Both the position numbers and the translations under genes were made by a program. The notes under the pieces are model-generated. The model had not been told where the DNA came from. It did no database searches and saw only the letters and a list, made by a program, of their open reading frames with translations. Shown here one piece after another: positions 83 to 45,782 of a stretch of DNA of 58,967 nucleotides. Location of the stretch: assembly GCA_028867785.1 (NCBI GenBank), contig JAGWFS010000011.1, positions 1 to 58,967 of the forward strand. Direction: 5' to 3'. Positions within the stretch are counted from its first letter, which is position 1. Every line of letters begins with the position of its first letter. This stretch comes from Nitrososphaerota archaeon (GTDB taxonomy: Archaea > Thermoproteota > Nitrososphaeria > Nitrososphaerales > Nitrosopumilaceae).

Positions 83-195
83 AAACAGGCTCTGAGCGGG
101 ATGCAATGAAAAAACAAATCAAAGAGAAGTATTCTAGGATATTTGATGACTTGACAAATGAAAAGAGATATTTGCTCAAACGTTCCAGTAAATGA
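79..195 (+). CDS. Possible small charged protein (38 aa) or the tail of a longer one
   Basis: ATG at 79 to TGA at 193-195 encodes a 38-residue, lysine-rich, probably helical peptide (starts MKTGSERDAM, ends LLKRSSK). The frame stays open upstream to 31, so it may instead be the end of a longer protein. No family is recognised. The ATGA overlap with the upstream frame is the main argument for a separate start. Confidence 0.3.
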   Translation: MKTGSERDAMKKQIKEKYSRIFDDLTNEKRYLLKRSSK

Positions 196-22716: not shown

Positions 22717-23670
22717 CTATTCTATTTGTTCTAATTTCAAGTCTATCTTTACGCTAGAATCTGGCTCGTCCCAGTCTAACATATTCTCTTTTGGAACAAT
22801 TCCCAAAGGGTCGTATCTGTCAAAGCGTGTCTCACCTTCTATTGAGGTGAGCAGTACCACTTTGGACTTTTCACCATTTGCAACAGACAAACTTACTCTT
22901 GTGCTATCGTTGCTAAATATTCCGCTGATAGTGCTCACCATTGAATTTAGAACGCCAATAGGAACTTTGTTTCCTCCTACTACGTAAAGCAGTGCACTCT
23001 TGATGCTGTTTGGGGATGCATCCTCGTATAACATCTTGATTGAATCTCTAAGAGATGTCTCAACATCTGGTATGTCTTTACTTGTCGAGAGAATGTTGGT
23101 CCTAAGCGGTAAGGATGAGTTTTTCAAAGTGGAGATAACATGCATCAAGGCAGCATTTGTGATGGTATTGCAAGAATCAGGTGTCAGATCTGGATTGCTG
23201 TCAAGCAGAGCATCGTTGTCTATAATTACGGTGCAATCAGAATTCGCCTTTAGTCTTTTTAGAGAAACTCCTGAGAAGAAAATCCTGTCCTTTTCAAATT
23301 TGAAAGGCATTATTCCAAAGGAAAGAACGTTTTTGCCCATCTCCTTGCTAATCTGGGAGACAACTGGAGCCAACGCCGCACCAGATTTTCCAGCCAAGTT
23401 AGCTATTATTATTATGGTTGAGTAGGACGCCAGTTTTTCAGCAATTGTGCTTCTTGCACCAAACGATATGCCTCTGATAAGATATGCTGATGGGTTGAGA
23501 ATGGGGCTAGTATTTATCAAAATCTTGGAAGATTCTTGGTTTAGGTCTTTGGGGTCGTGGCTAATGAGAAGGGAATCGCATCCAATCTCAGTTTTTATGC
23601 CTGTAGCAAGTCTGCTGCCTGCGCCTCCCAATCCTACGACTAGAATTGGCCCTTGCATCTGAAATTCCAT
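22717..23670 (-). CDS. FtsZ/tubulin-superfamily protein lacking the GTPase signature
   Basis: This 317-residue protein has the FtsZ-like N-terminal glycine loop VVGLGGAGSRLATGI (11-25). At the place of the tubulin signature (GGGTGTG) it reads ANLAGKSGAALAP (90-102), so the phosphate-binding loop is destroyed. A clear T7 loop (NxDxxD type) is not seen either. Nitrososphaerota divide with Cdv/ESCRT-like proteins, and a degenerate FtsZ homologue of unknown role is known in the group. It may bind nucleotide weakly or be structural. It converges on eL31 with a 3-nt gap. Confidence 0.75.
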   Translation of the reverse strand: MEFQMQGPILVVGLGGAGSRLATGIKTEIGCDSLLISHDPKDLNQESSKILINTSPILNPSAYLIRGISFGARSTIAEKLASYSTIIIIANLAGKSGAALAPVVSQISKEMGKNVLSFGIMPFKFEKDRIFFSGVSLKRLKANSDCTVIIDNDALLDSNPDLTPDSCNTITNAALMHVISTLKNSSLPLRTNILSTSKDIPDVETSLRDSIKMLYEDASPNSIKSALLYVVGGNKVPIGVLNSMVSTISGIFSNDSTRVSLSVANGEKSKVVLLTSIEGETRFDRYDPLGIVPKENMLDWDEPDSSVKIDLKLEQIE

Positions 23671-42544: not shown

Positions 42545-43357
42545 TTGACACAAAACCAAAATGAATCTGCTGGCATGATATCGGAAGGCGCAAGCTATGC
42601 AAAACTTGGCAAGCACAAAGACGCCATATCCTTCTTTGACAAGGCCCTAAAAGTTGATCCGCTAAACCTAGATGCGTTATACAACAAGGGGCTGTCGCTG
42701 ATTCAGCTAAAGAAGCACAAGGACGCCATGGCCTCTTTTGAAAAAATACTTGAAAAAAACCCCAGCCATGTACTGGCATTGAACAATTTGGGAAACCTGC
42801 ATGCAGAACAGCAGCAGTTTGAACGTGCGCTAGGTTTCTATGAAAAGGCACTAAAAACAGACCCAAATCATGTTTCAGTTGTATATAACAAAGGAATTGC
42901 AGAAATAGGAATAGGAAAATATGATGAAGCCCTCAAGTGTTTCAATCATGTTTTGTCAATTGAGCCTGAAAACATCTCTGCTACTTACTTTAAGGGCCTC
43001 GTACTTGGAAAACAGAAAAAACACGACGATGCGTTACCATGTTTTGACAAAGTGATGGAAAAAGATCCGGAAAATTTCGAGGCCGTATTTTACAAAGCAA
43101 CAAGCCTTGCAGAACTTGGCAAACATCAAGACGCAATCGTTTTGTTTGACAAGGTTTTAAAAGAAAGTCCAAAAAACGGCACGGTGATTTATTCAAAATC
43201 TAGAAGCAAGGCAGAGCTGGGCGATGATCGTGAAGCCCTTGAGCTTCTTGCACAGGCCATATTGTATTATGGAAAGACAATAAAGGGATGGGCAACAAAG
43301 GACTCGGCATTTAATAGGTTTAAAGATGATCTGCGATTCAAGGCAGTTGTGAAATGA
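42545..43357 (+). CDS. TPR-repeat protein
   Basis: This 270-residue protein consists of about seven tetratricopeptide repeats (DAISFFDKALKVDPLNLDAL, then similar 34-residue units with Gly/Ala, Tyr and Pro at the usual places). It is a protein-interaction scaffold. Start is TTG 42545, 26 nt after ACTATATG. It is followed by the SHOCT-domain gene after 1 nt and lies upstream of the tubulin-like gene. Confidence 0.88.
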   Translation: MTQNQNESAGMISEGASYAKLGKHKDAISFFDKALKVDPLNLDALYNKGLSLIQLKKHKDAMASFEKILEKNPSHVLALNNLGNLHAEQQQFERALGFYEKALKTDPNHVSVVYNKGIAEIGIGKYDEALKCFNHVLSIEPENISATYFKGLVLGKQKKHDDALPCFDKVMEKDPENFEAVFYKATSLAELGKHQDAIVLFDKVLKESPKNGTVIYSKSRSKAELGDDREALELLAQAILYYGKTIKGWATKDSAFNRFKDDLRFKAVVK

Positions 43358-43358
43358 C

Positions 43359-43658
43359 ATGTCAGATGACTTTGTAAAAAACATAAAGACACTTCTTGCC
43401 TCAGGCAAAGGAGACGCAAAGAGGCTGATGGAAATACTTGATTTTGTAAAACAATCCAACCCTGTATACATGTCAGATTACAAATATGTGCAAAATCTGA
43501 TATCTGATGAATCAAGTAACACCAAGATGGAATCTGCAGATGCCCGACCTGAAATTAAATTGGAAGACCAGATAGCACTTCTTAGGATGAGACTTGCAGA
43601 GGGGAAGATTACAATAGCCGAATTCAGGGAACTGAAAAAGACCATAATAGAATCCTGA
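43359..43658 (+). CDS. SHOCT-domain protein with an N-terminal domain shared with 49416-50201
   Basis: Residues 1-50 (MSDDFVKNIKTLLASGKGDA, then RLMEILDFVKQS) are clearly alike to the N-terminus of the membrane protein 49416-50201 (MSDDAIKIIQSLIDSKKGD, then RLHEILNKLQQG). The C-terminus is a SHOCT motif (LLRMRLAEGKITIAEFREL), a short helical oligomerisation or docking module. It is cotranscribed with the TPR protein (1-nt gap). The function is unknown. Confidence 0.75.
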   Translation: MSDDFVKNIKTLLASGKGDAKRLMEILDFVKQSNPVYMSDYKYVQNLISDESSNTKMESADARPEIKLEDQIALLRMRLAEGKITIAEFRELKKTIIES

Positions 43659-43805
43659 ACTCTCTAAAGGATGATTTCTTCCTAAATTTTAAATTCAGAA
43701 ACCGCATTTGTCATACAATGCAGCAAGTAACTGGCAAAACCTCGTTTTTATGTCTACAACAATCAAGTATGGGCTTTACAATCTTACACTCTAGGATTAA
43801 AGTGA

Positions 43806-43812: not shown

Positions 43813-43833
43813 ATTGTTATATGGTGATTAGTA

Positions 43834-45228
43834 TTGGCTACTGTTAACGCTCCACTGCCTCCTGCCCCAGTTCTGATGACATGTTTTGGTCATTGCGGTA
43901 TAGGACTCGGCGCAGAAGCGTATAGGAGATTATTGATTGACGCAGGGGCTGATCCTCTCAAGCCCACATTAAAAGGTGAAAAGGATGAATCGCGTGTTTT
44001 GAAGAGGTATGGCAGCACAATCTTGAGGTTTCCAAACTCATATGGTGGAAATGAGATTCCGCTAATTCCACGTGCACTGCTGGTTGACTTGGACCCGAGG
44101 GCAGCGAACCTAATACTGCAGTCATATCCTGATCTTTTTGCACTACGTGACAAGCATGTCATTCACGGAGCAGGCGGGGCAGCTAGAAACTGGGCAGAAG
44201 GCAGGAGCAGATTCATCAATGAAGTAACAAAAAAATTCGACATGCAAAAGCAACTGGCAGGACTGTCTCCTGAACCAGTGAGGGGCTTTACAATTCCATT
44301 TGCGATGGGCGGAGGAACAGGGAGCTCCTTTGCCAGCGCATTCATGCAGTATATCAAAAAAGACACCAAGGAACATGCCACAATCGCATCGTTTGGATTG
44401 TTGCCAGAATTTGGCTGGGATCCGGTAATCTTTGAAGCAGCGGCAATTAACATTGTCATGAATCTTGAACACCAGATAAAATACAGCGACTGCTCTCTTT
44501 TATTTTCAAACAAGAGGTTAAGGGAACTTGCACACAAACACGAGAAAAAGACAGAAAAGTTACAATCCATCATAGATGATCTTCCAAAAGAACACGAGAT
44601 TGGGTGGAAGGACTATAAGGGAATGAACCTTATTGCGGCAAACGCCATATCGATGTTTACTGCATCATTTGCAAGAGAAACAGAATGGGATATGTCAAAC
44701 TACAGGACATGGCTTGCAACCAAGAAACCGAGGTTTGCAGTACCGTGGGTTATTCCGGTGGTTCCGGAGGAAAGGCAGTGGGGAACTGATCTGATGTCTG
44801 GAGGAAAGGGAAACACCATGGATGCTATTGTGGAACATATCGGAAAGAAAAACGATGCCGTATTGTTTGACATTGATGAAAACGATGTGCGTGACAAGGG
44901 CGGACAACGAGACTCTTGTGTGGCATTAGTTAAGATCAAAGGAGACTTTGATGCAAAGGAAAGGGATATCCTAAAGAACATGATAAAGGACAGGTTCCAC
45001 ATTGAAGAATCTCGTATGATATTTGTCAAGATTCCTATACTGGATACAGAGCAGGCAAATGTGACAATACTTGTAAACACAAAAGCAATTGGACCCAAGA
45101 TCTTGGAGATTGCAAGCGAAGCAGAGGCCTCTTGGGACGGCTACAAGGAAGAATATGGCAAGTGGGGGCTTACAACCGAAGAGTTCAAGCAAAGTCTTAT
45201 GGATGTTGTCCATCAATTTAGCGCATAA
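43834..45228 (+). CDS. Tubulin-like GTPase, artubulin type
   Basis: This 464-residue protein resembles eukaryotic tubulin more than FtsZ. Features in order: FGHCGIGLGAEAYRRL (18-33; compare tubulin GQCGNQIG), PRALLVDLDP (80-89), GAGGAARNWAEGR (112-124; compare GAGNNWAKG), GGGTGSS (159-165; the tubulin signature GGGTGSG with a final Ser), SFGLLPEFGWDPVIFEA (186-202) and a T7-like NLIAANAISMFTASF then WDMSN (285-289). Artubulins are known only from a few Nitrososphaerota and related archaea. A coiled-coil protein follows 2 nt later. Start TTG 43834 (25 nt after GTATATC). GTP-dependent filament formation is the inference. Confidence 0.85.
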   Translation: MATVNAPLPPAPVLMTCFGHCGIGLGAEAYRRLLIDAGADPLKPTLKGEKDESRVLKRYGSTILRFPNSYGGNEIPLIPRALLVDLDPRAANLILQSYPDLFALRDKHVIHGAGGAARNWAEGRSRFINEVTKKFDMQKQLAGLSPEPVRGFTIPFAMGGGTGSSFASAFMQYIKKDTKEHATIASFGLLPEFGWDPVIFEAAAINIVMNLEHQIKYSDCSLLFSNKRLRELAHKHEKKTEKLQSIIDDLPKEHEIGWKDYKGMNLIAANAISMFTASFARETEWDMSNYRTWLATKKPRFAVPWVIPVVPEERQWGTDLMSGGKGNTMDAIVEHIGKKNDAVLFDIDENDVRDKGGQRDSCVALVKIKGDFDAKERDILKNMIKDRFHIEESRMIFVKIPILDTEQANVTILVNTKAIGPKILEIASEAEASWDGYKEEYGKWGLTTEEFKQSLMDVVHQFSA

Positions 45229-45230
45229 CC

Positions 45231-45782
45231 ATGACTGACTTTAATTTTCTAGAACAGGTCGCACTCCAGATAAAACGAAATAGGCAACAACTAACTGACG
45301 TTGACGATGAACTTTCCACAATAAACTTTAGAATTCACGAAATACCGCTTAAAATATCGACTGAATCGACGTTTGCAAAAATGATTGGCGAACAGTACGT
45401 TGACGCAACACAAGAGCTGGAATCTGCAAAAGAAAAACTCATGAAAGAAAAAGAGACCCTGACTGCCAAGATAAATGACGATATTGCAACATTCATCTCT
45501 GATTTTACATCTAGGGAACTTGTAATTCCATTAGAGCCAAATCCGATGATAGCAGACGGAAGCACCTTTTTCAAATACAAAAATGAAAATACGTTTAAGA
45601 ACATTTTTGACATATTGAGCGAACTTTTGGGATTGAGCTCGCCCATACTTGTAAAAGACGTAATGTTTTCCCCTACTGGAATTGTAATCAAAGTAACCGA
45701 CGAATATGAGGCAAAACAAAAGTTCCTAAGTAGCATTAATGAAGTGCAGAAAACTCTCTCAATTAAGAAAAGAAGGGACTAG
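45231..45782 (+). CDS. Coiled-coil protein cotranscribed with the tubulin-like gene
   Basis: This 183-residue protein has a long helical N-terminal part with heptad-like character (LEQVALQIKRNRQQLTDVDD; about 5-95) and a compact C-terminal part (about 96-175). It starts with ATG 45231, 2 nt after the tubulin-like stop. No family is recognised. The position suggests a binding partner or regulator of the tubulin-like protein. Confidence 0.7.
   Translation: MTDFNFLEQVALQIKRNRQQLTDVDDELSTINFRIHEIPLKISTESTFAKMIGEQYVDATQELESAKEKLMKEKETLTAKINDDIATFISDFTSRELVIPLEPNPMIADGSTFFKYKNENTFKNIFDILSELLGLSSPILVKDVMFSPTGIVIKVTDEYEAKQKFLSSINEVQKTLSIKKRRD

Follow-up and report, generated by a model that had tools for sequence, protein, structure and literature searches.

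The artubulin family is already known. Members have been described from Nitrosarchaeum and Nitrosotenuis (PMC3349469; PMC3835317), and the artubulin locus reported by Yutin and Koonin in 2012 has Snf7 and dCMP deaminase genes as neighbours (PMC3349469). In published trees, artubulins branch either at the tubulin base or among the tubulins, without resolution (PMC9871819, PMC13394414). The closest solved sequences are the Asgard tubulins AtubA/B and OdinTubulin (PMC13394414; PDB 9f6t, 7evb), which have a tubulin fold like that predicted for artubulin; the Atub proteins pair as an A/B heterodimer in which one T7 glutamate is catalytic, whereas artubulin is usually encoded by a single gene and appears to have no acid there. 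OdinTubulin also has coiled-coil neighbours (PMC9871819). Elsewhere in the superfamily, BtubA/B of Prosthecobacter are prokaryotic tubulins encoded beside a TPR gene (bklc; PMC3349469), and FtsZl-1 (Tubulin_2; Makarova and Koonin 2010, PMC2875224) is a GTPase that occurs with a coiled coil, fused to the GTPase itself, and with a vWA protein.

The window analysed here, a 58,967-nt stretch of an archaeal contig, derives from a Nitrosotalea-type ammonia-oxidising soil archaeon of the same genus group as Candidatus Nitrosotalea devanaterra, and its artubulin is 87% identical to that of the N. devanaterra locus LN890280.1. A sequence-only reading had proposed a tubulin homologue followed by a coiled-coil protein, and both open reading frames, the gap between them and all of the motifs quoted were found as described (Table 1). 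Comparison with other Nitrosotalea shows strong purifying selection on both genes (dN 0.02–0.09 for artubulin and 0.06–0.20 for the downstream gene, hereafter the partner, with dS saturated). A separate FtsZ homologue in the window has a degenerate T4 loop, reading LAGKSGAA where the FtsZ signature is GGGTGTG.

Table 1 Features of the artubulin locus; positions are those of the window unless another locus is named
Feature	Position	Strand	Description
Upstream TPR gene	42545–43357	+	Nitrosotalea and sister genus only; outside the universal unit
Small SHOCT-like gene	43359–43658	+	Upstream of artubulin, Nitrosotalea and sister genus only; outside the universal unit
17-bp element TGTCTAnAACnATCAAG	43751–43767	+	Fixed distance before artubulin; likely promoter or regulatory element for the two genes
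TTAAAG	43797–43802	+	Candidate TATA box for both genes, 37 nt 5' of the artubulin start codon; from Nitrosotalea and Nitrosotenuis alignment
GGTGAT	43823–43828	+	Shine-Dalgarno-like, just 5' of the artubulin start; conserved in Nitrosotalea
Artubulin gene	43834–45228	+	464 aa, TTG start; tubulin-superfamily GTPase (PF00091, tubulin PDB matches, predicted fold)
T7-loop region RETEWDMSNYRTWL	44674–44715	+	Codons 281–294; apparently non-acidic at the alpha-tubulin E254 position
Partner gene	45231–45782	+	183 aa, ATG start; directly 3' of artubulin, gap 2 nt
Partner parts	Residues 4–51 and 60–92; 106–182		Helical hairpin; C-terminal alpha/beta domain (predicted model)
Separate FtsZ	22717–23670	−	317 aa; matches NCBIfam FtsZ model TIGR00065 below its cut-off
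vWA gene, deep-lineage locus L067	7734–8366	−	Example of the deep-lineage vWA set
311–325-aa protein gene, deep-lineage locus L067	10328–11263	+	Example of the deep-lineage set; family unassigned

The first gene encodes a true artubulin, as judged from its PF00091 match (61.2 bits, cut-off 33), its tubulin matches in sequence and fold, the lack of matches to FtsZ models and its orthology with the named Nitrosarchaeum and Nitrosotenuis homologues, to which it is 76–80% identical over the full length and with which it shares the same motifs. In PDB searches using a single sequence and a profile, the best 60 matches were all tubulins, headed by Asgard AtubB and AtubA, and the nearest solved sequences were Asgard and eukaryotic tubulins. 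The predicted structure (pTM 0.76, mean pLDDT 68) has the tubulin fold over its full length, including the C-terminal helices, and its top 50 fold matches were all tubulins or tubulin complexes (TM 0.63–0.69 by query, over approximately the whole length). None of 22 artubulins matched an NCBIfam model, including the FtsZ equivalog TIGR00065, and none matched PF13809 (FtsZl-1/Tubulin_2) significantly (best E 0.14, in 2 of 22). Both the artubulin-type assignment of the sequence-only reading and its view that the protein is closer to tubulin than to FtsZ are thus upheld. An FtsZ or CetZ paralogue might be suspected, as PF00091 spans both groups and, in a difference from the Asgard tubulins, the C-terminal half of artubulin has no detectable tubulin sequence similarity. 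Against the uniform tubulin matches, the absence of any FtsZ-model match among the 22 artubulins and published trees that put artubulins with tubulins, though without resolution (PMC9871819, PMC13394414), such a paralogue is barely credible; placement relative to CetZ rests on those trees.

The GTP-binding motifs are intact. Nucleotide-contact motifs T1–T5 were found in 55 of 55 full-length artubulins, as was the T6 pattern; the GGGTG signature is present and the H7 pattern occurs in 54 of the 55. The T7 segment reads RETEWDMSN in 54 of 55 full-length artubulins and RDTEWDMSS in the other, a count restricted to the whole-genome set found with tblastn because the seeds of the named loci include RETEWDM, and it is near-invariant among 57 distinct artubulins. 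Four of five MAFFT settings pair D286 with the OdinTubulin aspartate and place S288 at the catalytic glutamate, the fifth shifts further, and a phmmer alignment places N289 at that position; the model predicts H7 at residues 259–285 and H8 at 288–295. No alignment setting put an acidic residue at the alpha-tubulin E254 position, and none occurs at residues 288–290 in the distinct artubulins examined. Since the register varies with alignment settings and model confidence around T7 is low (pLDDT ~60), the register is not certain, but the artubulin loop (ETEWDMSN) appears to lack the catalytic acid of alpha-tubulin E254. The loop earlier described as T7-like is correctly placed, but apparently without the acid found at the catalytic position in tubulin and FtsZ.

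The partner is the one universal neighbour of artubulin. Among 80 named loci it lies directly downstream on the same strand in all 76 that could be scored, the remaining four having a contig edge within 140 nt of artubulin. Pairing spans Nitrosotalea, Nitrosotenuis, Nitrosarchaeum and deep non-ammonia-oxidising lineages. Loci from whole genomes, which overlap the named loci by species, agree: the partner stands beside every full-length artubulin with room for it, separated by ~2–18 nt or with a short overlap. Relatives with a tubulin-like gene and no coiled-coil neighbour would have spoken against the proposed unit, and the synteny survey found the opposite; the suggestion of a dedicated partner is strongly supported by this gene order. 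Papers on artubulins do not discuss the coiled-coil gene as a partner, nor, in the portions available, the altered T7 position (PMC3349469, PMC3835317), and relative to them the obligate two-gene module is new.

No other gene is common to all artubulin loci. In Nitrosotalea and its sister genus the flanking genes are a TPR gene and a SHOCT gene; the former recalls BtubA/B, but it lies outside the unit, is confined to these two genera and stays when the pair is lost. In the deep non-ammonia-oxidising lineage, a divergently transcribed vWA gene is found upstream in 19 of 19 loci (for example L067; L171–L189), with a MIDAS DGSRS seen in L188, and a 311–325-aa protein of unassigned family follows the partner in 17 of 19. 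These two genes recall FtsZl-1/vWA systems. The resemblance lies in the vWA neighbour, whereas the artubulin coiled coil is a separate gene and artubulin has no significant PF13809 match.

Snf7 is directly upstream in only seven loci, all of Nitrosarchaeum type, which also show the published dCMP deaminase neighbour; no Snf7 gene adjoins artubulin in the remaining 73 named loci, nor in the Nitrosotalea locus of the window. This limited distribution weakens the proposal that artubulin acts with ESCRT-III/Snf7 in cell division, with the coiled-coil gene secondary (Yutin and Koonin 2012, PMC3349469). That proposal draws on the Nitrosarchaeum-type arrangement, but the partner is present wherever the contig allows, Nitrosotenuis uzonensis has no Snf7 neighbour (PMC3835317) and the pair is lost in close relatives, and we regard it as unlikely.

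The two genes are also duplicated and lost together. Both of the artubulins present in one genome (G038) have a partner of their own. A single 2.2-kb deletion in a Nitrosotalea genome of 99% completeness (G018) joins the equivalents of window positions 43408 and 45655; artubulin is gone entirely, as are most of the SHOCT gene and most of the partner, of which only the 3' end is left. The TPR gene is retained. Main clades agree between artubulin and partner trees and pairwise distances are correlated (r = 0.97), as expected from co-inheritance of linked genes. In two Nitrosopumilus-type genomes (L087, 3810–4325; L088, 6421–7206), artubulin is without its N-terminal GTPase region and the partner is intact, reflecting decay, truncation or assembly error.

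Artubulin is more widespread than the earlier statement that it is known from few archaea, which is now outdated: within the order, roughly one sampled genome in four has it (94 of 400, and 55 of 209 of good quality), as do 34 of 37 in the host's own genus, many of the genomes searched being metagenome-assembled. Across the 400 genomes, artubulins of Nitrosopumilaceae-type genera are 76–99% identical and those of two deep families 53–59%. In a 398-genome sample of the phylum, every match fell within the host's own family. A plasmid search returned no artubulin relative, and two viral contig matches were rejected as phage connector proteins sharing AARNWAE, not tubulins. One record titled Gammaproteobacteria bacterium BBSC-SA02 (L143) holds a pair 80% identical to that of the window and is probably a mislabelled or contaminating archaeal contig.

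The partner was predicted with confidence (pLDDT 92.6) as a long helical hairpin followed by a C-terminal alpha/beta domain. Its description as a coiled-coil protein therefore fits the hairpin, whereas half of the predicted model is globular; the statement that it has no known family stands, as no Pfam or NCBIfam family matched and searches of PDB and viral structures gave no convincing match. A ZapB match (E 0.001) and similar matches from single members were set aside as coiled-coil noise, a weak PADLOC match (E 1e-4) was read as coiled-coil similarity, and a Pcc1-like assignment of the C-terminal domain was rejected (hhalign probability 0.2%). Hairpin-bearing homologues occur without artubulin in one family, beside a radical SAM gene (L072–L075). 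In another family without artubulin, the C-terminal domain stands alone as proteins of 112–158 aa (within L078–L091: L078–L083, L085 and L089–L091) adjoining an EMG1/NEP1 or dual-specificity phosphatase gene; these form an unnamed small domain family. The partner domain is thus wider than the artubulin system.

These features bear on whether the partner might instead serve artubulin outside the filament, folding or storing its monomers as an assembly chaperone or cofactor comparable to prefoldin or the tubulin cofactors. The strictness of the pairing and the length of the hairpin suit a chaperone as well as a filament-binding factor, but comparisons of the partner with prefoldin, tubulin cofactors and ZapB gave nothing significant in sequence or fold, and some genomes that lack artubulin encode the partner's C-terminal domain by itself. 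We hold a chaperone to be the less probable role, though it has the strongest claim among the alternatives weighed here.

Upstream of artubulin, TGTCTAnAACnATCAAG and TTAAAG are kept in Nitrosotalea and nearly all Nitrosotenuis-type loci; TGTCTAnAACnATCAAG is not present in Nitrosarchaeum-type and deep loci. Searches for it in the host genome and six others found a single copy in each, apart from N. devanaterra, which has one further site bearing a mismatch. Conservation of both elements while neighbouring genes differ fits a pair with its own promoter. The TATA-like element of the sequence-only reading is accordingly replaced: TATATC and TATATGG are not conserved in relatives, whereas TGTCTAnAACnATCAAG, TTAAAG and GGTGAT are. 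The conserved block at 43750–43795 (45 nt) can also be read as a 14–16-aa open reading frame, MSTTIKYGLYNLTL. A micropeptide was rejected in favour of a DNA element, because in Nitrosotenuis the 17-bp motif stays while the start codon and later codons change: conservation lies more in the DNA than in the frame.

Genes may lie side by side because they are expressed together, without any contact between their products, and the two proteins might share a promoter through simultaneous need without acting together. Partner homologues that exist apart from artubulin would suit this explanation, but flanking genes change in every lineage and the pair never splits, even where identity falls to ~53% for artubulin and 25% for the partner, which makes mere co-expression quite improbable.

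We favour the interpretation that the operon encodes a GTP-binding filament of tubulin type and a dedicated associated factor, and consider it probable. On this interpretation, a single conserved promoter would drive both genes, which would be passed on together throughout Nitrososphaeria; artubulin would bind GTP and form a single-subunit, tubulin-like protofilament; and the partner, through its hairpin and alpha/beta domain, would bind the filament and organize it by nucleating, cross-linking, anchoring or controlling its turnover. Microtubules built from the alpha-tubulin E254N mutant show no GTP hydrolysis and no catastrophe as they grow (PMC8764682). With the catalytic glutamate apparently missing from its T7 loop, the artubulin polymer is predicted to hydrolyse GTP slowly by itself, unless the needed chemistry comes from E282, E284, D286 or the partner, and its turnover may for the same reason depend on the partner. 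A stronger version likens the replaced T7 glutamate to the engineered E254N mutant: the filament interface would have no GTP hydrolysis of its own, and the obligate partner would be a dynamics switch, completing the active site or removing subunits. We think this version doubtful; if true, the pair would make up a GTP-tubulin machine of two components, different from FtsZ, CetZ and alpha/beta-tubulin. Whatever the role of the favoured filament and its factor, the pair probably does not carry out cell division on its own, given that some species dispense with it and that Cdv and FtsZ genes are present besides.

In the literature since 2012, artubulins figure as possible relatives of the ancestral form of eukaryotic tubulins, and the Snf7 neighbour, a link now seen to be local, had been the only lead to their function. 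The one constant companion gene of artubulin is now named, which makes a direct biochemical target available, and the altered T7 loop yields a sharp prediction of stable GTP filaments. The evidence points to artubulin and its partner as a two-part cytoskeletal system not yet characterized, much as the sequence-only reading had suggested.
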